Source of the DNA: a virus
Strand: one strand, 5' to 3'
IMG/VR virus record: IMGVR_UViG_3300025118_000050
Span: 1-38,835 of that record
DNA: 38,835 nucleotides
The translations under genes were made by a program, and so were the position numbers. Positions 7,536-35,211 of the stretch are shown piece by piece. How positions within the stretch are numbered: position 1 is the stretch's first letter; every line of letters begins with the position of its first letter. The notes beneath the pieces were generated by a model. The model made no database searches. It was not told where the DNA came from and was given only the letters and a program-made list of their open reading frames with translations.

Positions 7536-7728
7536 TTACTAAAGCCTTTAGCATGTCTTTGATTTCTTTAAGTTCACCTTTAAGACTGTCTAATTCAGCC
7601 TTTTCACTATCTTTACGCTTACGCGATTCAAGATACTTTTGATGTTCATTCATATCAGTGGAAACAATTGCGTTTGATTCTTCATCTCTATAAAGAGCAT
7701 GAGTATTTTCAACAGGGATTAAAGTCAT
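7525..7728 (-). CDS. Small coiled-coil protein
   Basis: A 67-residue protein, MTLIPVENTHALYRDEESNA. Residues 1-25 form a short motif (PVENTHALYRDEESNAIVST) that I associate with a small conserved cyanophage protein next to structural genes. Residues 28-65 form one long charged helix with heptad spacing (LDSLKGELKEIKDMLKALV), so it probably oligomerises. The start overlaps the stop of the 2555-residue gene (ATGA), implying coupled translation. The function is unknown. It may be a chaperone or trimerising partner for the neighbouring tail protein, since small coiled-coil proteins beside fiber genes sometimes act that way. Confidence 0.75.
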   Translation of the reverse strand: MTLIPVENTHALYRDEESNAIVSTDMNEHQKYLESRKRKDSEKAELDSLKGELKEIKDMLKALVNGN

Positions 7729-10700: not shown

Positions 10701-13700
10701 ACCAGCGATATAACCGTAGAAATCGCCTTGTGGTTGATTCTGTAAACTAAATGTATCTACATTTATAATTGTTGATGTAGACGTATATAATTCAGGGATA
10801 CCTTGATTGTCGTCATATGGATTTGCAGTAAAGATATCAGATGGAGCATTATATGGTCCATACTTATGATTTGGAGTTGCAACTCTAAATCTTAAATCTC
10901 CACCAGAGTTACCAATAAATCCAGCACCATTACCCCAAACAGTTTCACCAACTTGGAATGTACCATTTGTCATGGTAATTTCTAGAAGTTTGGGGAAGAC
11001 AAAACCAGATATATCTTCACCTTCGAAGAAACCAAACAATTGAGTTCTTGGTTTGCATCCTCGAATTACAAATTCAAGGTTACGAGCCCTCATATATGGA
11101 AGATTATCACGTTGAACTACACGATCACCTAAAGATTCGGAATCAATTCTCTCAACTACTCTAGTACCAAGTCCTGTTCTAGACTGTTCAGTTGTTGTAG
11201 TAGTTACATCAGAATCTACCTGAACTTGAACATTTGCTGCAGTAACAGCAACCATCCTTGTGTCCCATCTATCTGGTGATCCAAATCCACGGTTACCTGC
11301 TTCATCAACCATCCTAGGAACTTCATCTGCTACAACTCTCATCTCAGTTGTAGTTACCCTAGTAACATCAACACCAACCCAATCGGTCTGCCATGAATTC
11401 CATACTGTAGAAACTAGTCCTGTATTTTCATCAGCACCCATTTCTTCAATAGTATCTTCATAATCACCTTCAATATTAACAACTTGAGCATCAAGTCTTC
11501 TGGTATCAATCCAGACATCTGAAGATGGATTCAATTCCATACTTCCACGCCAGAATATTACAGCGAATGGTTGAACGTTCTCTGTTCTAGAAGCAAATGA
11601 GTTCTTAACAAATTCTGTTTCTGTATAATCAAGAGTAACTAAATCTCCTGTTCTACGGCAACCACTTCCAATCAAATCAGTAGCAAAACCATAGTCTTGA
11701 GAAGGATCTGCAGTTTGTCCAACACCAATAATAGCGTTAGTTCCTAAAAGTAAATCAACAGCAGTTGTATAGTGTGAAGGACGTAATTCGCCTTTATCTT
11801 TATCAAGAGAAGCATTAAAGTCTGGATCTAATTTACTAGAAGCATTAAATGACTTAAAGTTATCAACTAAGAATCCACACTTAAACCTATCCATTCCATC
11901 AGCATCTTTGATGGACATGTTCTTAGTATCACTTTCAAGCATAGAAAGTGCAGTATAATACTCAAGGTTTTTAACTCTCTGGTCAATCCTACCAATATCG
12001 GACATCCGATATCTCTTATATGACTTAGTAAGTGTCTTTACTTGTGCAGCTTCATATGTGTAAGGAGGAACTTGAATCGTTCCAACATCTAAAGCACCAC
12101 TTACTGTCTCCGGAGGAACAGGTACATCATCAGGATTTCCTACCTGAATCTGGAAAGAACCATTAGTTGTTAAGAATATCCTATCAATTCTAGGAAGATA
12201 ATAGTTATAGGTTAGATTTATAGTCTCATCATTCGAAAGAATGTTAGGTGGTGTTTGTCCAAGTCCTGTATATGTCCTTGAATCAAATTCAAATGGTGAT
12301 ATTGTTGCAGTTGCTGGATCGTAAGTTGATACCCTAGGACGAATATCAATATAATCAGTCAACCTATCAGTCATCCTTGAATCAAGATAATAGATATCAT
12401 TATCAAATCTCTCACTACCATAACTGTCTATACTGAATATATCTCCTTCATCAGTCTCTGGGACAACATAGTGTTGATAAACAACCTTCAACTTAGTTGA
12501 TGGTGCTGTCTCATCTCTTCTTCTTATGAGTCTACTATAATCATAGTAAGAAGCACGTTGTCCTGTATCTAATCTATACTTACTAAGAATTTCTCTATCA
12601 CCAACAGTGAAAGCAGTTACAGTTGCTTGAAGTCCAGATGTTTGGAAAGTAGCTACATCACCAGGTTGGAATCTTGTACTGTTTCTGTATGTTAGTCCAA
12701 TAGTACTAGCATTAGTTATTTCAGCGACAATAGCAACAGCACCATTTGTTGAAACTACTTCTTCACCAACAAGGATGTCTGATGTTGTTCCACTAGGTCC
12801 TGTTATTGAGGACATTGTAATGGATGGCAGATCAGGATCCGTCATATCATTGGATTCATAAACCCCAAGAACCCTGACAACATCAGGAACATTCAAACAA
12901 ATCTCTTCATCCTCTACACGAGTACCATAGAGATTGCTGTATGTTAATCCATTTTGAAGACTCTGAGTAGAAGTTCCGGAACCTACTTTACTAGAATTAG
13001 TAACAATATTATTCCCTAAAGTCCAACGCTTCTCTTTAGAAGAAGGATTATTTTTCTTAAGAGTTACATCAACTCTAGTTTGACTATCAGCAGCAACAGA
13101 GAGATTTACGAACTTAAGGTTCTTCATCCCACCACTGAACTGTATCTGATCCGCAGTTAATGCTTCACGTCTACCATCACCATAGGTAATCATATACCTT
13201 TGTGGTGTAAATGGTTCATAAGTGAACTCAGCACCTATATTAAATTGTCCAATAGCAATTTCATTACCTGCTACAGTTATGTTCCTAAACTGTTTCTCAA
13301 TAATAAGATAAGAATTAAGTATATCAATATCGCTAACATTGTTGTTCGGTATCTTAGTGATAAAGGAATTATTATTCTTAATCCTATTCTTAAGAGAACG
13401 AAGACCTAATCCCTGTGTGTTTACCTCTGCAACTGGAAGAGCACCATCAGCAACTCCAACAACATTTATTGCAGCAACAACTGTAAGATTGGTACCATCA
13501 TCAGAAACAGCACTAACTCTATTGAAAGTTTCAGTACTTAATCCAGAAGCAGAATAACCAATATAATTACCAACAGTTACAATACCAGCAAAATTATTTC
13601 CAGGACTTGTTACAGTCGAAATTCCCTGATTTGCAGCAGTAACAACAAATGTTGGATTATTACCAACAAAGCTATTTGCAATTGGAGTAGTAACTTTTGT

Positions 13701-16986: not shown

Positions 16987-16993
16987 TATTTAG
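16987..16993 (-). promoter_or_regulatory. Late-promoter-like motif CTAAATA before gp8
   Basis: The minus strand reads ACTAAATAAAG; the embedded TAA is the stop codon of the 4083-residue gene. gp8 starts 24 bases downstream. It would drive gp8, the 2555-residue gene and the two small genes after it. Confidence 0.5.
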
Positions 16994-19900
16994 TAAGAAC
17001 GTTTAATGTTTTTAATTCTGCGTACCACAGGTGCTGTAGAAAGCCCCGTAATACCATCATTTGTTACTACATTAAACACACCAGGATTACTATCTCTGGT
17101 TACTCCAGTTAATTTACCAAAACTATATCTTCCAAAGAAGGTATTAATTCCAGCCTCAACACTTTCGGTAGAAGAGACACTAACTGTGACTCTTTGAACT
17201 CCAGTTGTACCAATACCAAGAACAACACTTTCACCATACTCAACTGCTTGACAGCGATATATGTTATCCATAAACACTGTACCAGTACCTACAACACTAG
17301 TTCCTTCAGAATCTTCATAAGAAGTGGAACCAGTACCAGTATTGGTATCGTGAACATAGAAGAAGTCACCTGCCTCAATCTGTGTAAGAGATACAGCAGT
17401 TCCAACTCTTTGAGCAACCCTCATAAGAGGATCCACAAACATATCAAATACAAGTCCAGTAACCGCAACACCAATAACTGTTGTAGCGGCAACACCAGAT
17501 ATAATACCAAAATCACCCGTCATTACAGGAGTACCAAGAGTATCAGCAAATCCTGTTGGTTGTCCTAAAAGAACCAAAGGAACAGATGTATTAGTGTATC
17601 CAACACCAGCGTTATCTACAGTCAATGCATTAACTACTCCCCCAGCACTTATAGTTGCTGTTGCAGTTGCAAGTGTACTTACACCAAAGTAAGTACTAAT
17701 AGAAACTGTAGGTGCAACAGTATATCCCATTCCTGAACTTGTTAAATCTAGACTGATGGTTCCAGTATCTGAAACAATAGCAGTAGCAGCAGCAGAAATC
17801 TTAGGAGTATCTTCATCAACAATAACCAAGTTCAAATCAGCACCAGCATATGCTTCCTGCTTATCGTCAAATAATGGACGAACACTTTGAACAAATAGAG
17901 TAGTTGAACCAATACCAACATTCTGAATAATACGTGTTGTTGGAGTAATAGAAGATTCATTAATAATTCTTCCTTTACCAACATATACACCATCAACCAC
18001 AATATCATCTTTCTGCTTAGTCCATGACATAGAACGTTCAAGTGCAGTATCAGTTGTAATTCCAGGTCCAAAGTATTGAATAGTTTTAAATGTATCAGAT
18101 GTCTGAATACCACTAACAATACGTTGAGTTTGATCTAACCCAAATGTTACAGATTTAGTTGCATCATCACGCAATTTAACTTTATCACCCTTCTTAATAG
18201 TTTCTATAGTGTCAACGAATACGGAGTCAGTTATAGAACCCTTGAAGTAGTATATCTTCAGTGTATCACCTGCTTTAGGTGCTTCGAAGAAGTCAATAAC
18301 ACTACCACCCTTGAATTCGAAGGAAACGCCAGGATCTTGTAAAATATCATTAATAAAGATAATCAAGTTATCTTGAATTCTGATTGGAGAACCTTTAGCA
18401 GAACGAAGTGAAACAATAACACCTGCTTTAGTAATGGTAAATGATTTTTTAACCCCATCAAAGAATGGACTGAAATTATCTAAAACTTCTAGTTGTCCAA
18501 ATGTCCAACCAGTAAATTTATCATCATGAACAGATTCAACAATAATACGGAAATCCTTGAAGTTTGTAGGAGTTCCAGTTGTTGGAATACCAGTAAATGA
18601 TGCTGTATTCGCAGGAACAGTTAATACATCACCAATAGCATAATTACGTCCAGTATTATTAATAATAAACTCAGTTACACTATTACCTAATCCAACTGTA
18701 ACATCAACCGTTGCATTGACTCCACTTGTGGTAGAACCACCTGCAGCAACTAAAGGAATGTTTTCATATCCTGTAGGAGCGTCAATAAAGACTTTAGGTG
18801 GATTAGCAAAGGTAAATCCAGTACCAGGAGAGGTTACATTAATACTTGTAATATATCCAGCATCAACAATTGCAGTACCAATAGCAGTTCTATTTGGATA
18901 TCCAGTAGGTCCAGAAGTTCCAACTCCTACGTATACTGTCTGAATACCGATTCTATAACCACTACCACTGTTTCCAATAGATATGGAAGCAACAGTTCCT
19001 GTATCAGATATAACAGCAGTACCACCAGCAGAAACTAATGGTTGATACCCCATTCCTTCTGAAGAACCAACATTAACAAGAACACCACCTCTAGGTAAAT
19101 CTCCTACATTCAAATCTGCTGTTACAGAAGAACCAGTACCAGTAAATGATATTTCAGTAGTTGTAGAACCTTCTGCAAGACTATAATCAACACCTGGACC
19201 TTGGAATATCTCATTCAGAAGGATTATACCATTATTAGTAGAGAATCCAACAACATTAGACTCATCTTGAGTCATAGTGAATGTTTTAGCAATACCAGTG
19301 AAATCCTTAGAAAGTGAATCGAACAAATAGTTGTCCTCATAAGCAACAATGTCATCAGATTCTGCTGTTCTAATAAAGACTCTTCCTTGGAAAGTAGAAC
19401 GAGTAGTTAATCCACTATAACCTTCTGCACCATAAGGAGGTTCAACAAAGTTAAGTGAATTATCAAGGATAGTATAATTTCCTTCATACTTAGTAATAAC
19501 AGCAGGACTTGCTGATGTTCCAGTATGAACACCACCAGCACTTCCTAACCATGCTCTATCAACAAGAAGTTGATTTGCAACTCCACCATATCCAGTTGAT
19601 TTAACTCTCATGAATTCATCATCAATCTTAATTAAATCACCACCAATCATAGAACCAATGCCTGTAATACGAGCATTGACCTGGGAAGCATTCATAGTGC
19701 TAACCAATCCAACAGTAACACCGGTGGATACAATAGGTGATTGAATATTATTATCAAGAGCAATTAATACCTTAGTGTTCTGCTTATGGGATGTAATTGA
19801 ATGTGAATTACCTGTTCCAACTGTACTAAATCCAAGAATTACTGGAGGGTTAGCAAGAGCATCAGATGCTGTAGGTGATAACCTAATTAAATCTTCACTT

Positions 19901-22900
19901 AGTTTTACAGCATACACATCAGTACCAATTGTTCCGCCAGCAGTTCCTATACCAGTACCATCATATGCATATGTAAGTTTCTCACCAGTAATTAAGAAAT
20001 GATCTGCAAGTTGAATGGTATTTGCGTTAATATCAACGACTGTAGTATCTTCCTCAGCATCCCAAACCTTTCTAAAGATGGGGCGATTTCTATGTGTGAG
20101 ATTAAAATTACGTTTAACAACAGCAAGAGTACCAGTGTAAGTGCCCTCGCCATTACGTAATTGTCCAACCGAATCACCATCTCCAATACCTATAGTGTTG
20201 ATACCAACTAAAGTCCTTTGATTCTCTACAGCCTGTCCAAATACTCTAACCTTCGTAGCAATATTTGCGTTAGGAGTGTAATACAGTCCAAATGTAGAAC
20301 CAGAGAATCCAGCACCAACTGTACCTAATCCAACGTCCTGCATATTATTACCATCATCATATGATAGGACTTCTCCATATAATGTCTCATAAGTTTGAGC
20401 AATAATACCATCACTTGCCTGCATTACAAGAACTTCTTGTATTGCCATCTTACTATTTGTAGTATCCTCTATAGAAACAAAGAAATAAGCACTTTCATAC
20501 TCACTAGTCTGGAATCCACAAATCTTATTCTCTCCAGGAGTTGCAGAAGAAGAAATCGTTGTATAGAATGACTCCATCATTGATTCTACCATCGTGGTAG
20601 TACCAACTCCAGTAGCAGTCTTATTAAACTGATAATCAACTACCTTAACAGCACAATTGGTATTAATTCCTGCATTTGGATAGAAATTGAGATTAGTCTG
20701 TCCTGCAGTTTGAACACCGAACGTTCCAATGAAACCACCGGTGGATAAAGTACCATAATCTATAAACCCTGTAGCAGCATCAGTTGCACCAGGTACAATA
20801 TTAACTTCTGTTAACTGATGGGTATTAATTCCAGCAGTTGTCTGCATGACCTCAACAATTACTTTATTACCAGCGGAATTGGTCGGATTAATACCAAGAA
20901 TAGTAGTTCCAGCACCAATTGCAGTAGTTGTCGTAAATCCAGAAACTGTAACTAAATCACCTATAGTTGTTGATCCAGTACCAGTAGTAGCACCTGTTTG
21001 TATTCCAGGCATTCTGTTAAAGTCAACAGAGATGAAATCTATAACATAATTGTTTAATTCATACTTAGTTGGGTGGAAATTAACGTTTGCGTATGCACCA
21101 CTAAAGACATAATCAAAGGAACCCAAGAACCCTTGAGTATCAACACTATACTGGTTCATATATGCATAAGTACCATCCTGAACAACATTAAAGAATCCAC
21201 ACTGATTCTCACCAACATAACGAGTGTCTCTTACGTTATAGAAGTATCTGTGACTTGTAAAGGATTCTTTATTAATAAAATCAAACTTCTCAAATGGGTC
21301 AGTTCTAGGCTTACTATCAAATAAGTTACCAACATCATCAATTGAAAGAACCCTATTAGTTCTTGCTTCTTCATAATCAGTAAGAACCCTGTTCTCAAGA
21401 ACAATTTCCTTAGATACTGTTGTTTGATTAACAGTGCTTATACCAGCAACCTCAACAGTTAATTCTGTCGCATTATCAAAATCTAGTCTAGTATCAACAT
21501 CAGATACAGAAACTAAATCAACTTTAACTGATACTTCCTGTCCAGAAGCAGCATTTGCAGCAGCAGCACCGATACCAGCATTAGGGAATCCTGTCCCACC
21601 ATTTCCATAAACACCAGCACCCTGTTCATCAGCATCATTAGGTCTACCATCAAAAGATTCAAGTTCCATATCAGAGAACTTCTTAAATCCACTAGTATGT
21701 GTAATCTCACCAACTACATCTTTCCAACTAGCATATTGAACTGGTGATTTAATTGAATATGCAAATGCCTGATAATAGTTATTATCATGAAGTCTCTGCC
21801 TTGAATCATTTAAAAATCCAGTAACTTGTTGGAATCCTTTCTTCTGTTCTACAAGAGGCCCTACATCAAAAGTAGAATCAAATCTTTCAATTGTTTGAAT
21901 AAATCCAACTTGATTAGAAGATGAACCTTCAATTTGCTTATTAGGTTCAAATACATCACTAGTAGATACTCTTAAAGTGTTATTATTTCTATTCCACCCA
22001 ACTACGGTACCAGTCTTAGTACCAGTAAGTGTTTCTTGAGTAATTTTCTCTTTAATACTAAAATCACCCTTTTTAGTAACAGGAACAAATCCAGGGAAAT
22101 GTTTTTCTGGTATTATTCGTCCGGCAGATGCATCTGGACTGTATTCACCAGGATTGTCATTTTCTAATACAAATGTAACTTTAGGATTAGCACCACCAAT
22201 ATTTGGAGTAATTGAATTTAAAGTAAAGAGGTTATAATCATATTCACTAGAATTATATCCAAATCCAGTAGTAGCAATACCAACACCTTCAACTAAAACC
22301 TTATCACCAATAGCAAATGGGAATTCTTGTCCTGTAGAGAAATCAGTGTCAAGAGTAAGTTCAACAGTTGCATTTGAAGTAGTAAAACCAACTGTTTCAA
22401 TACCAACTCCATTAGAGTTATGAATAGGTATTATAGTGGGATAAGAATCTTGAAGTCTCTTAGTATTTTCAACAATAATAACACTAGAAACACCAACTGA
22501 ACCACCAACTTCAGTTTTAATCTCACATTCACTTAATATTAACCCACTAACTCTGTCCTTAACAACCAATTTTGGTGGAGTAGAATAATTACTACCACCA
22601 GAACTTAAACCGATATGATCTAAAGTTCTAAACCTATCAATCTTAAAGAGACTAGGTAATGCACCAGTTGGACGTAATGTCTTATCATATGGGAATTCAT
22701 AACCTGGGTTAATAATATGAGTCGTCTTAACTTGTCCGATAGACTTACTTTCAACTCTTAGAAGAGCACCATTTCCATAAGTTGTAGTAGCAGTACCAAC
22801 ATACTTTCTACTAATTGTAGAAATACCAGGAATACTCTTATACCCATATCCTTGATTGGTTATTTTAATATCCGCTATTGGACCTAGAGCACTAGGAGAA

Positions 22901-25900
22901 TTTGTCGTATATGACATTTTAGATGTCACATCTGTATAGGTAGTACTTTCTGGCTTATCAGGTACATTATATGTAAAAGTAGTACCGCCAATTGCAGAAA
23001 GTTTAAAGTTTCCGTTATATGAAGAATCAGATAGTTTAATTGTACTATAATTCTTAACAGTCTTATCTGTTAAGACTTCAGATTGAACTGTAGTAATTCT
23101 ATCTGGATTAACAGGTTTTAAACTATAATAAAGTAATTCTGGTGTTCTTACATTTGTTTGTAAAAAGACTTTACTACCACTTATACCTACGCTGCCTTCA
23201 GTAGTAACATCAAATTGATCCGGTGTTGCTGTCAGATACTTATGCTTGAAATCCTTATCTTTATAGAAATCAACAGCGAATGCTGAATATGTTGTTCCAC
23301 CAGAAACATTGGATAGTGAACTATCAGCAACGTTGAATTCTAATTTTTGCCCTCTAGTTATATTAAGTAAAGGATTAACTGGAAGTAGTGAATGTGTTAC
23401 TGCACCACCAGTGGATGCTAGAGATACATTAACTGGATATTGAATAGTCGCATTATAATAATTAGACGCTAATTTAATTTTATCATTAGTATCTTTAATA
23501 ATATAGTAACTATTATTAGCAGTTAAACCAGATACTACACTAGTTGATTCGTATATAACTTGATCACCTGTATTCAATCCATGATTTGTGATTGAAAGGG
23601 TGTCATTCGTTATACTGACATCCCCCTGTAGGAAAGTTGACAATCCTACAGTAACCTTTCTATTATAATCATTAAACTTAACTGTATAGGATGATGTAAT
23701 ACCAGGCATTACATTTAAGAATACAGTATCACCAACTCCTAATCCGTGAGCAGTTGTTGCAGTCGCAGTAACAACTACTTTCTCTAAGATACCAGTAAGT
23801 TGTGTATCTGTAGTAGTTAATGTATGAGTTACACCTGTTCCAACAGAATGTAAATAAAGTTGCTCTGCTACGGTAGCGCCAGTACCAACAAATATACCAG
23901 TAGAACCCATTCCAACTGGCATTGATGTCACTCCAACCAAATCTCTTCCAAGATTTAATGCAAAAACTTCACTAGGTAAACTAAAATTATTAATACCTTC
24001 GGTAGATACAGAAACTGCTGTTCCACCACCAGAAGAATAAGTTAATTTTTGTCCAGTAGTAAACTTATGTTCTGGTAAATAAATCGATCGTGTAGGAATA
24101 GCAAGAGAAGTTCCAACTCCAACTGCTGAACCAGGAGCATCAACATATATCGTACTGTTAATACCAACCCCAGAAGTAGTTCCAAGTCCAACTACTTCTC
24201 TAGGATTGAAATAGATGCTTCTTTGTAATTTGATTTCTTTATCTGTGTTTATGCCAACATTTATTGTAAGTCCCCGTGGTTTCTCTTCAATAATAGAACC
24301 AATAGTATGAGCAGTACCTACTGTTCCACCATATTCTCTTATAACTCTAACTCTAGAATTGAACGAATCAACATTAACAACATAAAGTTGTTCTGTCGAA
24401 ATACCAATAACATCATCTGGTTGAAGGATATTTACATCACCATTAATTGAAACAAACGTAACAATACCAGTTGCAGCAGTATTTCCAATAGCAGTTGCTA
24501 CCTTAAACTTTGATGTTGTTACTCCAATATTATAAACTCCATCTATATTAACAATAGACTGTGAAGATATACCAGAAACACTGACAAAATCGCCGTTTTT
24601 GAAGTTATGTGGTTGAACAGTTTTAGCAAGAATCGATTTTTTGTCATTCAATACCTGAAAAGTAACATTATCCTTTCTAGTTGTAGATGAAGTAAGTTTG
24701 ATAATGTCCTTACCACCTATCTTCGTTACTTTTGAAGATGCGTTAATTCCACCAGTTTCAGTATTATCAAATTCTACTCTATCGTTAACTTTATACTCAT
24801 GTCCACCATTCTCGATGAAAACTGATTCTATAACTCCAGGTGAAGCATAAACAACCGTTGCAAAATCATCAATACTCTTATCCGGACGTGCAACATACTC
24901 ATAATCACTCTCTGCAAAGGAGAGTTTATATGGATAGATATTTCTCACATATCCACCATCTTCAAAATTAATCTTATCAGTAATTGAATCTGGACTAAAA
25001 TTAAACTTATCTGGTTTAGACTTAAATGATTCTCCAATTACATATGGGAATACTGGAGTAAAATACTTATCAAATGTGGCATCTTGCTGAGAAGAACTAT
25101 CAATAGTCGCAAAATATGCATAAGTTCCTTCTGGATAATCTGGTGTCTTACAAAAACGTCCATTATATTTGTCTAAATCACCTTTATTAGTAAATGTGTA
25201 GTCATTGGTAAATGAACCCAATGGCCAATCACCAACAGTAGGACCAAGTTGTCTAGTAGCACTAAGTTCGTATCCAGGAATCATTCTCCGGATAACACCA
25301 CCATTTACTCTATCAAATCCATATGGACCGTAAATTGGGTTACCATCATAGGCAAATCCAAGAATTGGTGAATGGTTATCTGATACTTCTTCAGCATTTT
25401 CATATTCTAAGTCATAAGTACCATAATCTTTCTTACCATTCAACTTCAAGGATGGAAGCATCTCTCTTAGTTTCCTAGGAGCATAAAGGTGAGTAAACTG
25501 TGAACCATAGTCCCCAGTGCTATTCTCCATAAATCCATCATCAAGTTTAATCAAAGTACGATAACGATTTACATTATCAATCTCCCATCTCTTAACTTTA
25601 GGATCAACAACAGGAGGTATACCACCAGCATCTACAGCAGTCTCTACAGAGAGGAAAGATCTATCAGTAACAAATCCAACACCACCACTAACAACGTTCA
25701 CAGAGGTGATTACACCACCCTCTATGACTGGTGTGAGAGATGCATATGTACCAATACCAGACGTAATAATTTCTGGAGGTGAATTATATCCAGAACCACC
25801 TCTAGTAACAATAACTTGCTCAATTGCACCATTCCGTACAACTGGACGAAGTTCAGCACCAGAGCCAGCAATTAAATCAATATTTGGAGTTCTATTATAA

Positions 25901-28900
25901 TTAATAATCCCAGCATTACCATATCCACTTCCTTTTTGTGTTAAATCAATAGATGTTACTTCTCCCCTAACAACTGGAATCATAGTTGCATGATAATCAC
26001 CTAAGGAAGAAGAAATTCCAAGTTCTCCACTAATAGAAACCGAAATTGATTGATAATTGAATATATGAGTTCCTACACCAACATTGATTAATTCAACATA
26101 TATACCATTATCATAATCAGACGTAAGAGTACCACCAACGCCAGCTTGAGCAACTCTAAAATTATTATTGTTAATAACAAGTGCTTTATACTGCGCGGTA
26201 TCCGCTAAACCACCAATTGCAGTACCAGTAGTCGAATATGTTAAAATTTCGCCATCTTTATAACCATGATTCTTAATATTGATTGAATTATTAAACGTAC
26301 TGATTCCTGTAGTAGTAACAATACGTTTTTTATATTCATAACCACTTCCTGGATTGGTTATAAAGATTTTATCAACAACATTCTTCTTTTTAACACTTTC
26401 AAACTTTTGAGTACCAGATCCTTTATCAGAAAGGTCTACAGTATTGATTCCAGCAATAGCATCATCAAAATGAGAGTGTAATTGAATATTTGTATTATCA
26501 ACAAGTCCTACAAAGTAAATTGCACCATCACCTAACCCTGTTGTACCTGTTCCAACTGCGGTGCCATTATTCTGACGATAGAATACTCTTTCGCCATTAT
26601 TAAAGAGGTGATAGGTTGTAAACCCAACAGTATTATTAGATGTATTAATACCAACAGAAACGTCAAGGGTAGGAGCATGAACACCCTGCCTCATTTTTGC
26701 TTCTGCAGTTGCTCCACTACCATTACCACCATTGATATTAATTTGTGGTTGTTCTAAGTAATTAAAACCTGCATATGTTACATCAATTCTTTCAAATGCA
26801 CCATTTACATTAACATGTCCAGTCGCACCAATACCAGCAGCATCAGTAATAAGCAATTCTGGTGGATTAATAACATCATGCCCACTTCCACCTTGCAAAA
26901 CTAATATCTCATCTAATTCTCCATAGTAAAGTCCATCTCTTGACTTATAATTAGCAAGTTCAACACCATTAACAAACATACCTGTTTTTTCACCAGGTAT
27001 TGTAGTAAATTCTTCCCCAGAAGAATCAAATACAGGTTCACTAAACCTCCTTACCAATCTTTGAGAATCAATTGCCTTATCTTGTAATCTACTAGCAAAT
27101 TGATGCGTTGTAATACCTGCAGAATTACCTGCGATGGTAATAAATTTACCAGATTCAATATTTGAACGAGAATATGCTAATTTAAAGGATTGGTCATCAA
27201 TCTTCTTAGCAAAATAAGAACCTTCTGATAAAGGGTCAAGTGTAAGTGAAGTTGTAGATGTTGCAACAACACCATCTACTAAAGTAGAGGTTTCAACTGT
27301 TCCTGGAACGTAATAAACTTCATCACCTGTTTTAAAATCATGACTTCTATTGGTTGATATAGTCTCACCGGAGAAAGTCGCAGCAATTTTAATATCAATA
27401 CCTCTTAAGTCAGCATTTAACTGCTGATTAGCATAAAATGGAATAGAAGCAGATGTTATATAAGTTTGATGCTCTGGAGTACCTTCAATAACATCATGAG
27501 GTGCTGCTGTATGCTTCGGACCCACCATCTTCATACCATTGTAAGTATGATATGGACCAGCATAAGGAACACCACTAACAATTCCAACTACATTTAAGTC
27601 ATATGCATTAGAAACGTTAGAACTAAATGTATAGTCTGGTTGTTTAACTGCAGGAAGTACTTCTGCTCTAATAAGTTCCCTTCTTGCTTTAAATTGTGCT
27701 GATAAATCAATAAATCCCAATCCACTAAGAATAGCGATTTTATTAGAAGGTACATCAACTACAGTACCTTGTGTTTCAGCAGAATTTGTTTGATTAACAA
27801 GTGCCACTGGATCACCTAGGAATAATAAGTGAACTTCTGGACATGTAATCTTAATGTTACCATTACCAATATCTTCAACTGTTTCTATATTAAAGATATT
27901 GGTAACATTATAAACCCACTCTGTAAATGTCTTCTCAGTATCTTTTAACGCTCCAAGATTTTGTACATCAATCGCATCACCAGCAACCATCTGATTGGTT
28001 GGACCAGGTAACATGAAATCAGTAACTACACCAGTAATCCTAAGAAGAATTTTATTTCCATCAGGATCATATGCATAAACAGAAGAACTTAATCTAACTA
28101 AAGCATTCCTAGGTATATCAACTGTATTATCAGATAAACCTAAGAACTGTGTGGTAGTTTTGCTAGTATATGTAATTGTCCTATCAACACCGTCTACAAC
28201 GACTTCTAAGGTGCCTGAAGCAGGGAATCCGATAGTAGAGTCAACATAGATTGTATTAACACTAGCAACTTCATTACTTACTGTTCTAGTAGTAGGAGTA
28301 ATGCTAAACTTACCGTAAATAGAACCTACTTCACTAATATCTTTATTAGCACCAGCATCAAGTCCTATTTGATAATAAGTATTACCATCTCTTTCATATT
28401 CAATAATATTATCAATTGAACCATAAGAATAATTAAGTACACCTTCAACTGCGTCTTGATATAATGTTTGTCCCTTTAAAGTTCTAGGGTCATAAGCCTC
28501 ATCTAATGCAACAACTACTAAATCTTCATTAATTCTATAATCAGCATCTGAAGGTTTAATCGTTTGTTCAAATGGTTTTACAACTACTGCCTTAGAACCA
28601 TAGAGAGCACGGAACAAAATCTCAAAAGAATCATCAGTACCTTTTGTTACATAGAGATCTTTTGCTTGCTTAGAAAATAATGCCTGGTTAAGTCCAGAAA
28701 CAAAACTCCTATCCTCTAATCCAGGAACATAAAGTCCTTTATACTTCTTAAAGAACTCAGCAAGGAAAAGATTACTTAAATTATGTACTTCAGCATCATC
28801 ACTATGGTCAGCAGATGTTGAACTACTAAATGTTAGTCTATCTTCTTCCCCAGAAGCAAAGAGAGATGTAATCGCACTAAATGCACGTTTACAATCAAAA

Positions 28901-29241
28901 AACTGCCTCTTATCTTTACTTGTATAAGTTATTATCTCATTATCAATTTTTAAATATCCATATCTATCAGGAAATCCTACAGTAGAATTAACTGCTATAG
29001 TTTTATCAAAAGCAGTAATAGCACCATCCAGATTAGTAGAAGATACGAGATTTTTTTGAAGATATGAATCGTTCTTAATATATTGATCTAAATTTTCAGC
29101 AAGATCAATTGGACCTCCCTGAAATTCTTGTGATTTATAATACTGCTCTAAAAATTCCCCAAACAATGGAGATTCACTTCTAATCTGCTCCGGAATCTGT
29201 TGTGATACAACAGAGTAGGTCTTTGCTCTTGTTTCTATCAT
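16990..29241 (-). CDS. Giant baseplate protein at the gp7 position, with YHYH-type domain
   Basis: A 4083-residue protein, about four times T4 gp7 (1032), encoded between gp6 and gp8 where T4 has gene 7, the wedge initiator. The N-terminus PEQIRSESPLFGEFLEQYYK is typical of the cyanophage proteins at this place. Around residues 1290-1310, HSPILGFAYDGNPIYGPYGF is the signature of the YHYH domain. Much of the rest is module arrays: at least a dozen GxGY units (for example near 962, 1100, 1145, 2127, 3430, 3840), about eight 'H-x-F-x-x-G-E-x-V-x-Y' units (near 637, 884, 997, 1890, 3087) and two 'N-D/E-I-x-Q-x-PG' fiber-like units (near 3320 and 3600). The start overlaps the gp6 stop by one base. 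The role as gp7 analogue is inferred from position. No interruption was seen in 12.2 kb. Confidence 0.88.
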   Translation of the reverse strand: MIETRAKTYSVVSQQIPEQIRSESPLFGEFLEQYYKSQEFQGGPIDLAENLDQYIKNDSYLQKNLVSSTNLDGAITAFDKTIAVNSTVGFPDRYGYLKIDNEIITYTSKDKRQFFDCKRAFSAITSLFASGEEDRLTFSSSTSADHSDDAEVHNLSNLFLAEFFKKYKGLYVPGLEDRSFVSGLNQALFSKQAKDLYVTKGTDDSFEILFRALYGSKAVVVKPFEQTIKPSDADYRINEDLVVVALDEAYDPRTLKGQTLYQDAVEGVLNYSYGSIDNIIEYERDGNTYYQIGLDAGANKDISEVGSIYGKFSITPTTRTVSNEVASVNTIYVDSTIGFPASGTLEVVVDGVDRTITYTSKTTTQFLGLSDNTVDIPRNALVRLSSSVYAYDPDGNKILLRITGVVTDFMLPGPTNQMVAGDAIDVQNLGALKDTEKTFTEWVYNVTNIFNIETVEDIGNGNIKITCPEVHLLFLGDPVALVNQTNSAETQGTVVDVPSNKIAILSGLGFIDLSAQFKARRELIRAEVLPAVKQPDYTFSSNVSNAYDLNVVGIVSGVPYAGPYHTYNGMKMVGPKHTAAPHDVIEGTPEHQTYITSASIPFYANQQLNADLRGIDIKIAATFSGETISTNRSHDFKTGDEVYYVPGTVETSTLVDGVVATSTTSLTLDPLSEGSYFAKKIDDQSFKLAYSRSNIESGKFITIAGNSAGITTHQFASRLQDKAIDSQRLVRRFSEPVFDSSGEEFTTIPGEKTGMFVNGVELANYKSRDGLYYGELDEILVLQGGSGHDVINPPELLITDAAGIGATGHVNVNGAFERIDVTYAGFNYLEQPQININGGNGSGATAEAKMRQGVHAPTLDVSVGINTSNNTVGFTTYHLFNNGERVFYRQNNGTAVGTGTTGLGDGAIYFVGLVDNTNIQLHSHFDDAIAGINTVDLSDKGSGTQKFESVKKKNVVDKIFITNPGSGYEYKKRIVTTTGISTFNNSINIKNHGYKDGEILTYSTTGTAIGGLADTAQYKALVINNNNFRVAQAGVGGTLTSDYDNGIYVELINVGVGTHIFNYQSISVSISGELGISSSLGDYHATMIPVVRGEVTSIDLTQKGSGYGNAGIINYNRTPNIDLIAGSGAELRPVVRNGAIEQVIVTRGGSGYNSPPEIITSGIGTYASLTPVIEGGVITSVNVVSGGVGFVTDRSFLSVETAVDAGGIPPVVDPKVKRWEIDNVNRYRTLIKLDDGFMENSTGDYGSQFTHLYAPRKLREMLPSLKLNGKKDYGTYDLEYENAEEVSDNHSPILGFAYDGNPIYGPYGFDRVNGGVIRRMIPGYELSATRQLGPTVGDWPLGSFTNDYTFTNKGDLDKYNGRFCKTPDYPEGTYAYFATIDSSSQQDATFDKYFTPVFPYVIGESFKSKPDKFNFSPDSITDKINFEDGGYVRNIYPYKLSFAESDYEYVARPDKSIDDFATVVYASPGVIESVFIENGGHEYKVNDRVEFDNTETGGINASSKVTKIGGKDIIKLTSSTTRKDNVTFQVLNDKKSILAKTVQPHNFKNGDFVSVSGISSQSIVNIDGVYNIGVTTSKFKVATAIGNTAATGIVTFVSINGDVNILQPDDVIGISTEQLYVVNVDSFNSRVRVIREYGGTVGTAHTIGSIIEEKPRGLTINVGINTDKEIKLQRSIYFNPREVVGLGTTSGVGINSTIYVDAPGSAVGVGTSLAIPTRSIYLPEHKFTTGQKLTYSSGGGTAVSVSTEGINNFSLPSEVFALNLGRDLVGVTSMPVGMGSTGIFVGTGATVAEQLYLHSVGTGVTHTLTTTDTQLTGILEKVVVTATATTAHGLGVGDTVFLNVMPGITSSYTVKFNDYNRKVTVGLSTFLQGDVSITNDTLSITNHGLNTGDQVIYESTSVVSGLTANNSYYIIKDTNDKIKLASNYYNATIQYPVNVSLASTGGAVTHSLLPVNPLLNITRGQKLEFNVADSSLSNVSGGTTYSAFAVDFYKDKDFKHKYLTATPDQFDVTTEGSVGISGSKVFLQTNVRTPELLYYSLKPVNPDRITTVQSEVLTDKTVKNYSTIKLSDSSYNGNFKLSAIGGTTFTYNVPDKPESTTYTDVTSKMSYTTNSPSALGPIADIKITNQGYGYKSIPGISTISRKYVGTATTTYGNGALLRVESKSIGQVKTTHIINPGYEFPYDKTLRPTGALPSLFKIDRFRTLDHIGLSSGGSNYSTPPKLVVKDRVSGLILSECEIKTEVGGSVGVSSVIIVENTKRLQDSYPTIIPIHNSNGVGIETVGFTTSNATVELTLDTDFSTGQEFPFAIGDKVLVEGVGIATTGFGYNSSEYDYNLFTLNSITPNIGGANPKVTFVLENDNPGEYSPDASAGRIIPEKHFPGFVPVTKKGDFSIKEKITQETLTGTKTGTVVGWNRNNNTLRVSTSDVFEPNKQIEGSSSNQVGFIQTIERFDSTFDVGPLVEQKKGFQQVTGFLNDSRQRLHDNNYYQAFAYSIKSPVQYASWKDVVGEITHTSGFKKFSDMELESFDGRPNDADEQGAGVYGNGGTGFPNAGIGAAAANAASGQEVSVKVDLVSVSDVDTRLDFDNATELTVEVAGISTVNQTTVSKEIVLENRVLTDYEEARTNRVLSIDDVGNLFDSKPRTDPFEKFDFINKESFTSHRYFYNVRDTRYVGENQCGFFNVVQDGTYAYMNQYSVDTQGFLGSFDYVFSGAYANVNFHPTKYELNNYVIDFISVDFNRMPGIQTGATTGTGSTTIGDLVTVSGFTTTTAIGAGTTILGINPTNSAGNKVIVEVMQTTAGINTHQLTEVNIVPGATDAATGFIDYGTLSTGGFIGTFGVQTAGQTNLNFYPNAGINTNCAVKVVDYQFNKTATGVGTTTMVESMMESFYTTISSSATPGENKICGFQTSEYESAYFFVSIEDTTNSKMAIQEVLVMQASDGIIAQTYETLYGEVLSYDDGNNMQDVGLGTVGAGFSGSTFGLYYTPNANIATKVRVFGQAVENQRTLVGINTIGIGDGDSVGQLRNGEGTYTGTLAVVKRNFNLTHRNRPIFRKVWDAEEDTTVVDINANTIQLADHFLITGEKLTYAYDGTGIGTAGGTIGTDVYAVKLSEDLIRLSPTASDALANPPVILGFSTVGTGNSHSITSHKQNTKVLIALDNNIQSPIVSTGVTVGLVSTMNASQVNARITGIGSMIGGDLIKIDDEFMRVKSTGYGGVANQLLVDRAWLGSAGGVHTGTSASPAVITKYEGNYTILDNSLNFVEPPYGAEGYSGLTTRSTFQGRVFIRTAESDDIVAYEDNYLFDSLSKDFTGIAKTFTMTQDESNVVGFSTNNGIILLNEIFQGPGVDYSLAEGSTTTEISFTGTGSSVTADLNVGDLPRGGVLVNVGSSEGMGYQPLVSAGGTAVISDTGTVASISIGNSGSGYRIGIQTVYVGVGTSGPTGYPNRTAIGTAIVDAGYITSINVTSPGTGFTFANPPKVFIDAPTGYENIPLVAAGGSTTSGVNATVDVTVGLGNSVTEFIINNTGRNYAIGDVLTVPANTASFTGIPTTGTPTNFKDFRIIVESVHDDKFTGWTFGQLEVLDNFSPFFDGVKKSFTITKAGVIVSLRSAKGSPIRIQDNLIIFINDILQDPGVSFEFKGGSVIDFFEAPKAGDTLKIYYFKGSITDSVFVDTIETIKKGDKVKLRDDATKSVTFGLDQTQRIVSGIQTSDTFKTIQYFGPGITTDTALERSMSWTKQKDDIVVDGVYVGKGRIINESSITPTTRIIQNVGIGSTTLFVQSVRPLFDDKQEAYAGADLNLVIVDEDTPKISAAATAIVSDTGTISLDLTSSGMGYTVAPTVSISTYFGVSTLATATATISAGGVVNALTVDNAGVGYTNTSVPLVLLGQPTGFADTLGTPVMTGDFGIISGVAATTVIGVAVTGLVFDMFVDPLMRVAQRVGTAVSLTQIEAGDFFYVHDTNTGTGSTSYEDSEGTSVVGTGTVFMDNIYRCQAVEYGESVVLGIGTTGVQRVTVSVSSTESVEAGINTFFGRYSFGKLTGVTRDSNPGVFNVVTNDGITGLSTAPVVRRIKNIKRSY

Positions 29242-31319
29242 TAGTAGGAGTATCCGCCGCTGACTGAATTAGCTGTAACTTCTTGTGAGTTGAATGTTGT
29301 AGAGGTTGTATAAGTGGTTGCATACGATGTATCAACCTCTTGTACATTAGTAGCTTCTGTACCACTAACCGTTGAATACTGTGGGGCTCCCCTCACTAGA
29401 GGCGATTCACGATCGTCTCTTCCATTAGGGAAACTAGAACTAACAATATAATTGGAACCAGAAATGTCTGCTCCTGATGAAATAGTGTCAGACACCATAG
29501 TAACTAGACTGTTATTATTATCTAGTTGCAAATAAAGATCCTGTAATCCAATAACATCATAAGACTTAGGAGTACCACTAATTTGAACAATTGGTTGGTC
29601 TGTACTAAGAATTGTAGAATTAATAATTAACGCATTAATTAAAATCTCACCACGTGTATATTCAATAGAACCAATGTTATTTTTAACAATGGCAACTTGA
29701 TTAGAAGCGAGAAGTTTGAATAATATCAATCTTCCAGTTTTTCTATCAGCATTAGGTATATCAGAAAGATAAACCGTACCACTTACACCACTAACAGAGA
29801 ATCCAGATGATTTAATATTAAACCCATTTAAAGAGTTAACATTAAAGGCATTACCAAAACATAACTCATAGGTTGCTAAGTCTGCTAATGCAGGCCTCAT
29901 ATCCCTCCTCATCGTCACTCTAGTAATGTTAGAAGTGATAGATGATTCAGTTTGATCAATTAAACGCATTGCCTTAGAGAACTTAAATCGCGCTCCAAAG
30001 GTGTTTAACTCACTTGACTTGGAATATGTATTCAAAGTGTTATTAATCGCCGTTTTAAGGGCATCTACGCTATTAACAGCGTTAGCATTATAATATGCAC
30101 TAGTATCCAACTCAATATACAGATACTTAAGATCTATAATGTTTGGAAGGATTCCAGCAACTGTATATCTCTTCAATTTATTCTTAAGTTCAATTTTTTC
30201 AATATTTGACAAATATTTACCGTTTTTGGGTTTTATGCTAATAAAAACTTTTCCGAATTGTGGAGGACTCGTATCTTCACCTCCATAAACAGAAACTGAT
30301 TCAGTATTAGAGTAAATTTTAGTTACAATTGCTTTATAGTCATCTGCAGTCACCGCACGATTCTGAGCAGAGTAAACTAAAGGCGCATATTTCTTAATTG
30401 ACGAAACTGACTCAATATCATCACCATTTTCAGCTGAATTGATGGTTGTTACATCAGAAATGCCGTTTGTAACAGTAGCACCGGAATTATCTTCGACATT
30501 TCCAGTAAATGTAAATGAATTTACGCCATTTGCGTCTTTTCCATTCGTTGCTATGTAACTTACCTTGATAAAATTGGAATCTTCAAGTTTTTTACCAAAT
30601 TTACCATCTCCAAAGATGATTTCATACTTCTCATCAGCAACTTCTTGCAAAAGGAACACTAATGAGGTGTTTGTAACGTCAACAATGTTATTAGTTAACT
30701 TATAAACCGTCTTCAGGTTAGTTGCACTACTATTTGGTGATACAGTTGCTCTAATTGTCGATGTATCAATACCTTCATTAGGTAAAATGAACCTTTCTAT
30801 AGGAATTCCGTCACCAGTCTCTCTATATGTGAAAGTTTTAGTTAAATATGAACCTTCAAAGATATCAATGTTAGTAAATTCTGCAATATTATCTACAACA
30901 GGGACAGTTATGTCGTTCATCACGGCAAAACTGTAATTATTTGAGTTATAAGTGTTAGAAACTGCTACAACACCTGCTTTTAAAGTCAAAGTTAGAGGTT
31001 GAACACCATATGATGATGTATCAACGTAAAAACTTATGATTGATTTTGCTGATCTCTTACTTCTTGGGGTATATCCTACGTTTCTAGCTAAAGCAGAGAC
31101 ATTTTCTCTTAAAGTTGCACTATCAATGAACACCTCATTAGCAACCATGTTACTATTGTAGGCAGTAATGTAAGAATTATATGCTAAAGTGTCGATTAGA
31201 ACCGACATATTCGATCCTTCGAAGTCAAAATCGGTAAAATTAGAATTCGCCCTCAGATAATCTTTAATCTGAGTCTTAATATCCTCAAAATCGAGGTTTG
31301 TAAACTGTGTAAGAGGCAT
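29241..31319 (-). CDS. 6: Baseplate wedge protein gp6-like
   Basis: A 692-residue protein (T4 gp6: 660). The N-terminus MPLTQFTNLDFEDIKTQIKD, then DFDFEGSNMSVLIDTLAYNS, NMVANEVFIDSATLRENVSA and LARNVGYTPRSKRSAKSIIS, are textbook gp6. The baseplate-J-like core is recognisable in YEIIFGDGKFGKKLEDSNFI, SSIKKYAPLVYSAQNRAVTA and ADDYKAIVTKIY. gp6 dimers form the inner iris ring of the baseplate that connects six wedges and opens during sheath contraction. The last ~150 residues are Ser/Thr/Gly-rich and less conserved. The ATG follows the gp25 stop with no gap, and the stop overlaps the giant gene start (TAATG), so the three genes form one translational unit. Confidence 0.95.
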   Translation of the reverse strand: MPLTQFTNLDFEDIKTQIKDYLRANSNFTDFDFEGSNMSVLIDTLAYNSYITAYNSNMVANEVFIDSATLRENVSALARNVGYTPRSKRSAKSIISFYVDTSSYGVQPLTLTLKAGVVAVSNTYNSNNYSFAVMNDITVPVVDNIAEFTNIDIFEGSYLTKTFTYRETGDGIPIERFILPNEGIDTSTIRATVSPNSSATNLKTVYKLTNNIVDVTNTSLVFLLQEVADEKYEIIFGDGKFGKKLEDSNFIKVSYIATNGKDANGVNSFTFTGNVEDNSGATVTNGISDVTTINSAENGDDIESVSSIKKYAPLVYSAQNRAVTADDYKAIVTKIYSNTESVSVYGGEDTSPPQFGKVFISIKPKNGKYLSNIEKIELKNKLKRYTVAGILPNIIDLKYLYIELDTSAYYNANAVNSVDALKTAINNTLNTYSKSSELNTFGARFKFSKAMRLIDQTESSITSNITRVTMRRDMRPALADLATYELCFGNAFNVNSLNGFNIKSSGFSVSGVSGTVYLSDIPNADRKTGRLILFKLLASNQVAIVKNNIGSIEYTRGEILINALIINSTILSTDQPIVQISGTPKSYDVIGLQDLYLQLDNNNSLVTMVSDTISSGADISGSNYIVSSSFPNGRDDRESPLVRGAPQYSTVSGTEATNVQEVDTSYATTYTTSTTFNSQEVTANSVSGGYSY

Positions 31320-31721
31320 TTATCTGAATGATTCTAATACAAAACTAAATTGTTGCTCTGGAACATCAATTCCCACAACTTCATATACTATTAATACGTC
31401 ATATGTGTGAGCATCATAATAAGGAGTGACTTCAACATCGACTAAATTCACTCTAGGTTCAAAATTATCAATAGTAGTACGAATTTCATCTGCAATAATA
31501 GATGCTGAACCTGCATCCATTAGTTCAAAAAGACTTTCTCCTATTCTAGATCCTAGAATAGGGTTAAAAGGACGCTCTTGTAAGTGTGTTAGTACTAAAT
31601 TCTTCACAGCACGTGTTATCGCACTCTCATTTTTGAGAGGAATCACGTCTCTAGTAATAGGATGAGGCCTAAAAGACAATGAAATGTCTTTAAAACCACG
31701 TGATACGCGCTGGACCGGCAT
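31320..31721 (-). CDS. 25: Baseplate wedge protein gp25-like (GPW/gp25 family)
   Basis: A 133-residue protein (T4 gp25: 132). KDISLSFRPHPITRDVIPLK, then AVKNLVLTHLQERPFNPILG and SRIGESLFELMD are diagnostic of the GPW/gp25 family. The family has a lysozyme-like fold without enzymatic activity, and in T4 it links the wedge (gp6-gp53) to the sheath as the platform on which sheath polymerisation starts. The ATG lies 18 bases after the stop of the acidic 55-residue gene, with a late-promoter-like CTAAATA spanning that stop. It heads the gp25-gp6-giant protein unit. gp53 and gp5, often close to gp25 in T4-like phages, are not in the window. Confidence 0.95.
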   Translation of the reverse strand: MPVQRVSRGFKDISLSFRPHPITRDVIPLKNESAITRAVKNLVLTHLQERPFNPILGSRIGESLFELMDAGSASIIADEIRTTIDNFEPRVNLVDVEVTPYYDAHTYDVLIVYEVVGIDVPEQQFSFVLESFR

Positions 31722-33735: not shown

Positions 33736-33936
33736 CTAATACGAAGGTTCATCTGTAGTACTTCCCCCACCACCAAGGTTACCACCACTATATTCATTTG
33801 CTAACATTCTTATATACGATACTCCCTCTTTTCCTTGCAACCTATTCCACCTTACTTGAAAGTCCTCTTCACTTAGTGAGTGATAGAGGACATCCTGTTT
33901 CTGATAAATGTGATATTCAAATTCTGTCATAATCAT
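33736..33936 (-). CDS. Small hypothetical protein with Gly-rich tail
   Basis: A 66-residue protein (64 if the second ATG, at 33930, is used). FEYHIYQKQDVLYHSLSEED followed by FQVRWNRLQG resembles a small conserved cyanophage protein with the pattern 'YHxY...LxHSLxExxFxxxWN'. The tail is NLGGGGSTTDEPSY. There is no membrane segment or catalytic motif. It overlaps the end of the cupin gene by about 20 bases and is the last gene of that short transcript before the promoter of the glycosyltransferase. The function is unknown. Confidence 0.7.
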   Translation of the reverse strand: MIMTEFEYHIYQKQDVLYHSLSEEDFQVRWNRLQGKEGVSYIRMLANEYSGGNLGGGGSTTDEPSY

Positions 33937-34270
33937 CTTCTATTCTTACTATGTCTTTCTCTTCGCATTCTTTCCCCATCTGTACTTCTATAATAGTTAG
34001 GCCTGTCTTGCCTGCTATAATTCTGTGGTGCTGCTCTGGTTTGATAAAAAAGGACATCCCTGGTTTTGCTTCTATTGTTTCCTCCCCTATAACTACCTGT
34101 CCCTCACCTTTTACTACTACCCAATGCTCACTTCTATTATAATGATACTGTAAACTCATCTTCTGATTAGCATGCACTACTAACCTCTTTAACTTATACT
34201 TACTATTATCCTCGCGACGTTCTTCAAAGTGGTCTTCGTAAAAACCCCATGGGCGAAAAAATCTGTACAT
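33917..34270 (-). CDS. Cupin of mannose-6-phosphate isomerase / ManC C-terminal type
   Basis: A 117-residue single cupin domain. It begins RPWGFYEDHFEE. The metal-site motif is SLQYHYNRSEHWVVVKGEGQ (39-58; Q41, H43, E48 and H49 as likely ligands), followed by PGMSFFIKPEQHHRIIAG (70-87) and EKDIVRIEDDYDRI at the end. This matches the type II phosphomannose isomerase domain found alone or at the C-terminus of ManC, which interconverts mannose-6-P and fructose-6-P on the way to GDP-mannose. Stand-alone copies occur in cyanophages. With a glycosyltransferase and FkbM methyltransferase close downstream it fits a sugar-modification set. The ATG has no clear Shine-Dalgarno site and follows a ~150-base leader. 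Confidence 0.85.
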   Translation of the reverse strand: MYRFFRPWGFYEDHFEERREDNSKYKLKRLVVHANQKMSLQYHYNRSEHWVVVKGEGQVVIGEETIEAKPGMSFFIKPEQHHRIIAGKTGLTIIEVQMGKECEEKDIVRIEDDYDRI

Positions 34271-34420
34271 AAAAATTGTATGGGGCGACTTTATATAGAG
34301 AAAAAAATTTGCGGAGAAAAATTATATGTCGAAAGCAGACTTTTGTAGGTTAGAGTTAGGTACTTTTTTAGATCGCATCGCGCGCCGCGCCGGCATCAAC
34401 GAAACGCGCCATACTGCCGA
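34271..34420 (-). other. Long leader of the cupin gene containing a GC-rich island
   Basis: The stretch between the predicted transcription start and the cupin ATG is about 150 bases. Its first third (34372-34411) is strikingly GC-rich; 18 of the 20 bases at 34376-34395 are G or C. The leader strand also holds a 14-codon frame (MARFVDAGAARDAI, stop TAA). Short self-complementary pieces (GCGCG/CGCGC) could fold, and CCCCAT...ATGGGG brackets the cupin start codon. No known riboswitch consensus was recognised. Confidence 0.4.
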
Positions 34421-34427
34421 TTACTGA
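34326..34427 (+). CDS. Candidate 33-codon plus-strand gene across a GC-rich island
   Basis: A plus-strand frame from an ATG preceded by GCGGAGAAAAATTAT (GGAG, 9-base spacing), encoding MSKADFCRLELGTFLDRIAR and then RAGINETRHTADY. The second half is built from GC-rich codons (GCG CGC CGC GCC GGC), unlike the rest of the window, and LDRIARRAGINETR could start a helix-turn-helix. It lies opposite the leader of the cupin transcript and would be the only plus-strand gene here. It could be chance coding over a structured GC-rich leader element, so confidence is low. Confidence 0.25.
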   Translation: MSKADFCRLELGTFLDRIARRAGINETRHTADY

Positions 34428-34455
34428 TTATAACATAACACTGCTAATCTGTCAA
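34427..34455 (-). promoter_or_regulatory. Perfect sigma70-type promoter for the cupin gene
   Basis: The minus strand carries TTGACA (34455-34450), a 17-base spacer and TATAAT (34432-34427): a perfect match in both hexamers and spacing. The start would be near 34420. It lies between the 78-residue gene and the cupin gene and would give a transcript with a ~150-base leader. Confidence 0.8.
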
Positions 34456-34747: not shown

Positions 34748-34780
34748 CCCCCTCAGTGTTAATAACCGTAACGCTGATAG

Positions 34781-34809
34781 TTGACAACAATCCGCTCTTA
34801 TGTTATGCT
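34781..34809 (+). promoter_or_regulatory. Plus-strand sigma70-type promoter pointing into the DnaA-box region
   Basis: The plus strand carries TTGACA (34781-34786, perfect), a 17-base spacer and TATGCT (34804-34809, 4 of 6). Transcription would start near 34816 and run into the box cluster. No plus-strand gene follows, so the product would be an untranslated RNA, possibly an origin transcript or primer. Confidence 0.4.
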
Positions 34810-34871
34810 CGCTAAGATAACAACAAAACCAGACAATTATAAGACTTAAAGTAACTCTAACTCTCTCATAC

Positions 34872-35017
34872 TTTTCCACACATTATTATTACTTTTCAAC
34901 ACACTTGTGGAAAACGTTATAATTAAGCATTTCCTATTTATATTACTATTTAATACCTTATTTTCAATAGTTTTCCACAGAAAGTGTTAGTTTTCCACAA
35001 GCAATCTCTGTGGATAG
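34872..35017. other. Putative replication origin: DnaA-box cluster around an AT-rich core
   Basis: Four exact copies of TTTTCCACA, the DnaA box known from cyanobacteria, lie at 34872-34880 (+), 34906-34914 (-), 34971-34979 (+) and 34991-34999 (+). Near matches lie at 34893-34901 (TTTTCAACA) and 35009-35017 (CTATCCACA on the minus strand). Between the second and third box, 34915-34970 is about 80% A+T, like a DNA unwinding element. No other exact copy was noticed in the window. The 34714-34986 stretch has no convincing gene. The arrangement resembles oriC of bacteria. That it is used as an origin is inference. Confidence 0.5.
34935..34942 (-). promoter_or_regulatory. Exact T4-type late promoter element TATAAATA in the putative origin
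   Basis: The minus strand reads TATAAATAGG, an 8 of 8 match to the T4 late -10 element and the only exact one noticed. The nearest gene downstream (78 residues) starts over 200 bases away, so it may produce a long-leader late message or a non-coding transcript across the origin region. Confidence 0.5.
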
Positions 35018-35211
35018 GTTGTTACATAGGGGGATTCAATCCCATCATTCCAGTGTCTAATAACTCCTGCAATTATCACCGTGTTTGTTGTTAGATAAGT
35101 CGCTAATATAAACGTTCTAATGATACAAACTGTGTTATCGTATTTGTGTGTTTTATCATCAGAAAATGCGCCTATAGCATACATCCAAGTTTTTGCAATC
35201 TCTTTAAGCAT
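34987..35211 (-). CDS. Small single-pass membrane protein
   Basis: A 74-residue protein, MLKEIAKTWMYAIGAFSDDK. An N-terminal amphipathic part is followed by one hydrophobic segment (about 29-50, CIIRTFILATYLTTNTVIIA) and a C-terminal tail HWNDGIESPYVTTYPQR. I associate this short membrane protein (KTWMYAIGAFSDDK start) with cyanophage genomes, without a known function. Its 3' end overlaps two DnaA-type boxes. The start overlaps the upstream gene stop by 8 bases. Confidence 0.75.
   Translation of the reverse strand: MLKEIAKTWMYAIGAFSDDKTHKYDNTVCIIRTFILATYLTTNTVIIAGVIRHWNDGIESPYVTTYPQRLLVEN

Follow-up and report, generated by a model that had tools for sequence, protein, structure and literature searches.

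In T4-like cyanophages, a conserved element on the 5' side of the baseplate wedge genes is probably the counterpart of the T4 origin oriE, present once per genome. With slightly better than even confidence, we lean towards the explanation that it is an oriE-like replication origin, which an antisense early transcript would prime and which host DnaA would assist in those phages that bear DnaA boxes. We favor this explanation because the element combines features of T4 origins and has the same side and polarity with respect to the wedge genes. The promoter, the leader and an AT-rich stretch are the conserved parts of the element, and the boxes are a variable module.

With a conserved candidate that is defined by sequence and confined to one locus, the question where cyanomyovirus replication starts can be tested directly in isolates that already exist (S-SM2, Syn9, P-SSM7 and S-SKS1). 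In the literature on cyanomyovirus origins we found only a single predicted theta origin for Syn9, whose location is not given in the review (PMC2984593), and no prior report of DnaA boxes in cyanophages or T4-like phages was found in the open-licence literature.

Results

Structure of the element in the window

The window, that is, the whole 38,835-bp stretch of DNA that was analysed, is probably a fragment; this viral record of 38.8 kb encodes T4-type tail and baseplate proteins (gp25, gp6, gp8 and others). The view of the earlier note that the phage is T4-like, more exactly a T4-like cyanophage, is supported. The window also encodes two giant proteins of 4083 aa (16990–29241) and 2555 aa (7725–15392), for which the assignments were a PHROG baseplate wedge family and phrog_358 of unknown function. 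The features of the element and its landmarks are the following.

29241–31319: gp6, next after gp25
31320–31721, minus strand: gp25 baseplate wedge gene, landmark 3.06 kb from the promoter
34781–34809, plus strand: sigma70-like promoter TTGACA-N17-TATGCT, directed into the box cluster and antisense to the surrounding genes (sequence; model R1)
34801–34822, no strand: inverted repeat TGTTAT...ATAACA (CGCTAAGATAAC) spanning the -10 box and the probable start site (sequence; 62-element alignment)
34872–34880, plus strand: DnaA box TTTTCCACA (sequence scan)
34893–34901, plus strand: near-box TTTTCAACA, one mismatch, 21 bp past the first box, retained in relative L008
34906–34914, minus strand: DnaA box TTTTCCACA, reverse (sequence scan)
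34915–34970, no strand: AT-rich core, 80% A+T, candidate unwinding region
34935–34942, minus strand: T4-type late promoter TATAAATA inside the core, leftward toward the structural genes (motif match)
34971–34979, plus strand: DnaA box TTTTCCACA, invariant in relatives L008 and L358
34991–34999, plus strand: DnaA box TTTTCCACA, 20 bp past the preceding box, overlapping the end of the ORF at 34987–35211
35009–35017, minus strand: near-box CTATCCACA, one mismatch, not conserved in L008 or L358

The scan confirmed the four exact and two one-mismatch boxes that the earlier note had reported at 34872–35017 on both strands, and its rough estimate of less than one exact copy expected window-wide, with none elsewhere, also held: dinucleotide shuffles of the window give 0.70 exact TTTTCCACA (0 of 100 reach four), and all four exact copies lie inside this span. 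A stretch of 150 bp with more than one TTTTCCACA did not occur in any of 300 third-order Markov copies of the window. The signal is the clustering of exact boxes, one-mismatch boxes not being enriched over the whole window (28 found vs. 30.6 expected). The core of about 56 bases and about 80% A+T is as previously described; since 81 other 56-bp windows in the 38,835 bp are as AT-rich or more so, it is by itself not unusual. Of the six sites, relative L008 retains five (with TATTCCACA as the first) and L358 the right-hand box pair, with changed spacers in both.

Neither the sigma70-like promoter nor the minus-strand late promoter was in the earlier note. Model R1, which comprises promoter and leader, matches the window at 34779–34848 with E 1e-13 (next best 0.037), the window being one of its 62 training rows. 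Transcription from 34781–34809 is predicted from the sequence. The late promoter belongs to the TATAAATA type described for cyanomyoviruses (PMC2984593). In relatives (62-element alignment) the inverted repeat reads GTGAT...ATCAC or CTTATG...CATAAG; depending on the phage, it has the form TTGTGAT/ATCACAA or CTTATG/CATAAG, as if an operator and its regulator had changed together.

A scan revealed no intrinsic terminator within the element of the window, although S-SM2 and some relatives have hairpins at the right end of theirs. The hairpin of S-SM2 (locus L125, ~6125–6165), which is terminator-like for leftward transcription, as in some relatives, stands between the element and the early small-gene array. 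A structured-RNA reading was rejected, as no match came near an Rfam gathering score. Elsewhere in the window, a perfect sigma70 consensus promoter (12/12; TTGACA-N17-TATAAT, extended TG) faces leftward on the minus strand at 34427–34455, upstream of a 117-aa cupin/mannose-6-phosphate isomerase-like gene (33917–34270, PF01050), with a short GC-rich stretch (~34375–34411) between the two.

Occurrence and position in related phages

Many of the box-pair loci from IMG/VR have the same promoter and leader near the boxes, and the promoter model reaches E <= 0.1 in about 43 of 100 such loci. To avoid circularity, we ran a promoter-pattern search free of boxes and left out the loci returned by the box scan; the patterns fix the 17-bp spacer by construction, and the resulting counts are samples, among the matches listed. 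Searched in this way by promoter sequence alone, the element was found in more than 200 viral contigs and in named T4-like cyanophage genomes.

Its location is constant. In 113 of 113 loci holding both, among the matches listed, the element is on the strand opposite to gp25 and 2.1–10.1 kb on its 5' side. The cluster of the earlier note is conserved in relatives and confined to one locus. The element is flanked by an early small-gene array on one side and by the late gp25-gp6 block on the other, and is intergenic in most annotated records. Most matching isolate genomes have one strong match to model R1; outside the training set, these include P-SSM2 (3.5e-7), S-SKS1 (1.1e-5), P-TIM68 (6e-5) and S-B05 (5e-4), with weaker matches in Syn9 and P-SSM7. 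The match adjoins boxes in Syn9, P-SSM7 and S-SKS1, and a second, much weaker match occurs in four genomes. Approximate genome positions of the element are 58.1 kb in S-SM2, 52.6 kb in Syn9 and 151.3 kb in S-SKS1. Under strict filters the model has no match in T4, HTVC008M, S-PM2, P-SSM4, P-HM1, S-RSM4, S-T4 or ACG-2014f; despite this, S-PM2 has by eye a three-box cluster with a similar leader.

Beyond the element, minus-strand genes predominate (69 of 89 loci), but in S-BM3 genes on the promoter's own strand begin shortly after it, and driving these genes may be all that the promoter does there. A strictly non-coding plus-strand transcript was therefore rejected as a general description.

Enrichment and spacing of boxes and the AT-rich stretch

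Across the listed promoter-found loci, the element spans (125 kb in total) contain 209 copies of TTTTCCACA and the 1.63 Mb outside them 18, a 150-fold enrichment over the rest of the same loci. Eight scrambled words show no such contrast in the same loci, whereas TTATCCACA, the variant of E. coli type, does (22 in the element vs. 7 outside).

Same-strand boxes are spaced only 9–12, 20–22, 31 or 42 bp apart (39 spacings, non-redundant elements), with a helical phase of R(10.5 bp) = 0.93 (p <= 5e-5), and opposite-strand neighbors are mostly 12–14, 22–24 or 32–34 bp apart. The spacings in the window, 21 bp (34872–34893) and 20 bp (34971–34991), agree with this phasing. Directly repeated sites in helical phase, as in iteron origins, are therefore present, which suggests that bound proteins line up along one side of the helix.

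On average, the most AT-rich 50-bp stretch has 84% A+T in elements vs. 70% elsewhere, and a 50-bp stretch of at least 86% A+T is found in half of the elements vs. 0 of 396 control stretches. By sequence, the element thus has a promoter closely followed by an AT-rich region, as in T4-type transcript-primed origins. The late promoter TATAAATA is found leftward in 22 of 142 elements and in the other orientation in none of the 142; attributing the AT-rich core to this promoter only is partly correct in the window and fails in general, as just these 22 elements contain it.

Boxes as an exchangeable module

DnaA boxes are present in 62 of the 184 promoter-found elements among the matches listed, and about two thirds are without them. 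At least two ATTCTCAA/TTGAGAAT repeats are found in 41 of the 184 listed vs. 2 of 561 control stretches, and the remaining elements show a single such repeat, repeats of another kind or no visible repeat. Phages that share a host genus can differ in the repeats at the element. At least 25 changes among the three box states are needed on a gp25 tree (88 rows; few columns, and many forks left open), which means that the module was often gained, lost or swapped, or that gp25 and the element recombine. Given the two thirds of elements without boxes and these changes of state, DnaA cannot be required in all of the phages.

Other repeats were seen in individual loci: a leader word (~TCACAAGRYCTGAGCACATTTA) is repeated two to four times in L205, L236 and L279; in S-SKS1 (locus L590) about four 22-bp tandem repeats precede the DnaA boxes as a second iteron-like layer; and downstream of the promoter in L211 the repeat TGTGTTACA stands in place of DnaA boxes.

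Relation to the host origin and DnaA

The earlier note took TTTTCCACA for the DnaA box of unicellular cyanobacteria. It is the established DnaA box of cyanobacteria (PMC4674748), and we found it upstream of dnaN in the host family, where, among 20 genomes, TTTCCACA occurs in 19 and TTTTCCAC in 17. WH7803 has only the degenerate boxes TTTTCCACG and TTTTCCCCA at this place, so host boxes vary. The phage element thus contains a cluster of the host's DnaA boxes, as a bacterial oriC does. The picocyanobacterial oriC (L561–L580) has in addition a box-TTTCCTCAGG-CTACTACTA layout, with a DnaA-trio-like repeat beside a DnaA box, in 18 of 20 genomes. This box-GC-DnaA-trio module was found in 1 of 61 phage elements vs. 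1 of 114 controls, so the element is not a bacterial-style oriC, and a copy of the host oriC was rejected. A phage-encoded DnaA was rejected as well, since none of the 20 phage genomes searched encodes DnaA domain IV (PF08299). Together with the identity of the boxes to those of the host oriC, this makes host DnaA the likely ligand of box-bearing elements.

Six complete relatives show no GC-skew switch of the kind suggested for the site; skew follows the coding strand throughout, and since this component dominates, we rejected GC skew as an origin marker. Of the DnaA-dependent origin proposed in the earlier note, what stands is a conserved, phased cluster of the host box; the lack of a DnaA-trio speaks against a bacterial-style oriC, the boxes are a variable module, and T4-type priming is likelier than opening by DnaA alone.

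Discussion

Proposed mechanism and alternatives

Since its position matches that of T4 oriE, priming by a transcript of the T4 type is likelier than opening driven purely by DnaA. An early sigma70-type promoter would fire antisense to the baseplate genes, and its transcript would extend as far as the AT-rich stretch; there an R-loop could arise and give the phage replisome a primer for the leading strand. In members with boxes, the window among them, host DnaA would bind the phased TTTTCCACA copies beside the AT-rich core and help to open or mark the site; in others, different repeats or none take the place of these boxes. More tentatively, with confidence somewhat short of even, we propose that a conserved oriE-like site joins T4-style transcript priming to recruitment of host DnaA, with an initiator-binding module that has been repeatedly exchanged.

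Among the alternatives, transcription control is the one that survives best, although we regard it as unlikely. The repeats would be operators for DnaA or for a phage protein of similar specificity, and a ligand bound between the antisense early promoter and the leftward promoters would time the switch to the late baseplate operon. That the element has early small genes on one side and the late gp25-gp6 block on the other is consistent with this, as are the inverted repeat overlapping the -10 box, the late promoter in the core of the window and the exclusively leftward orientation of TATAAATA (22 vs. 0 of 142 elements). But TATAAATA is in only those 22 of 142 elements, and an operator needs neither the extreme AT stretch nor the tandem repeats of some members such as S-SKS1.

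We consider it improbable that the boxes are a sink which titrates host DnaA as phage copies build up and so stops initiation on the host chromosome. They match the host oriC box, and with several phased boxes in each of many genome copies a large amount of DnaA could be bound, in the manner of E. coli datA (PMC5835720); however, the fixed position, the antisense promoter and the AT-rich stretch are all unnecessary for a sink, as is sharing the site with other repeats, and most members are without DnaA boxes.

To a similarly low degree we credit iterons of a phage-encoded initiator with drifting specificity, the likeness to DnaA boxes being convergent or ancestral. The ATTCTCAA/TTGAGAAT repeats at the same place in other phages (at least two copies in 41 of 184 listed; controls 2 of 561), the other words that also occur there and the differing repeats in phages of the same host genus would fit such an initiator. 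Against it, no exact word is commoner than the one from the host oriC, the E. coli-type TTATCCACA shows enrichment too, and a protein with DnaA domain IV, the type searched for, was not found in 20 phages. Chance clustering, which the AT-richness of the genome would favor, is refuted by the shuffles, the relatives, the helical phasing and the fixed position, and has next to no probability.

The sequence evidence suggests that many T4-related viruses of ocean cyanobacteria start copying their DNA with help from host DnaA. If the oriE-like origin is real, T4 oriE gains a wide comparative context, and phage replication is linked to host DnaA in abundant marine viruses.

Comparison with known origins and DnaA-binding loci

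T4 oriE lies 5' of the baseplate wedge genes, at a distance of 1.7 kb from gp6, and its position and polarity relative to these genes are matched by the cyanophage element. Shared as well are repeats, an early-mode promoter and a primer RNA, predicted in our case, antisense to structural genes. The synteny is positional: we examined the repeats and saw no sequence similarity, and homology in sequence was rejected. In T4 the repeats are not DnaA boxes and fall on 24-nt coding repeats of gene 5; most annotated cyanophage elements are intergenic.

In T4 oriF and oriG, an AT-rich unwinding element lies downstream of a promoter, ~100 bp at minimum, and R-loops form in the unwinding region of oriF (PMC3016281). 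The cyanophage element too has a promoter and then an AT-rich region, but the T4 origins use MotA middle promoters and are without iterons; cyanomyoviruses are without motA (PMC2984593). In addition, oriF lies 3' of gene 25 and is primed by the uvsY transcript, whose strand is that of gene 25.

With the cyanobacterial oriC upstream of dnaN, the element shares TTTTCCACA in both orientations; the host origin has the box-TTTCCTCAGG-CTACTACTA trio, while the phage element is without the trio and has an added promoter. Like datA-type titration loci, it is a DnaA-box cluster outside oriC, but it differs from them in its conserved promoter, AT-rich core and fixed location, and in that its boxes are replaceable by other repeats.
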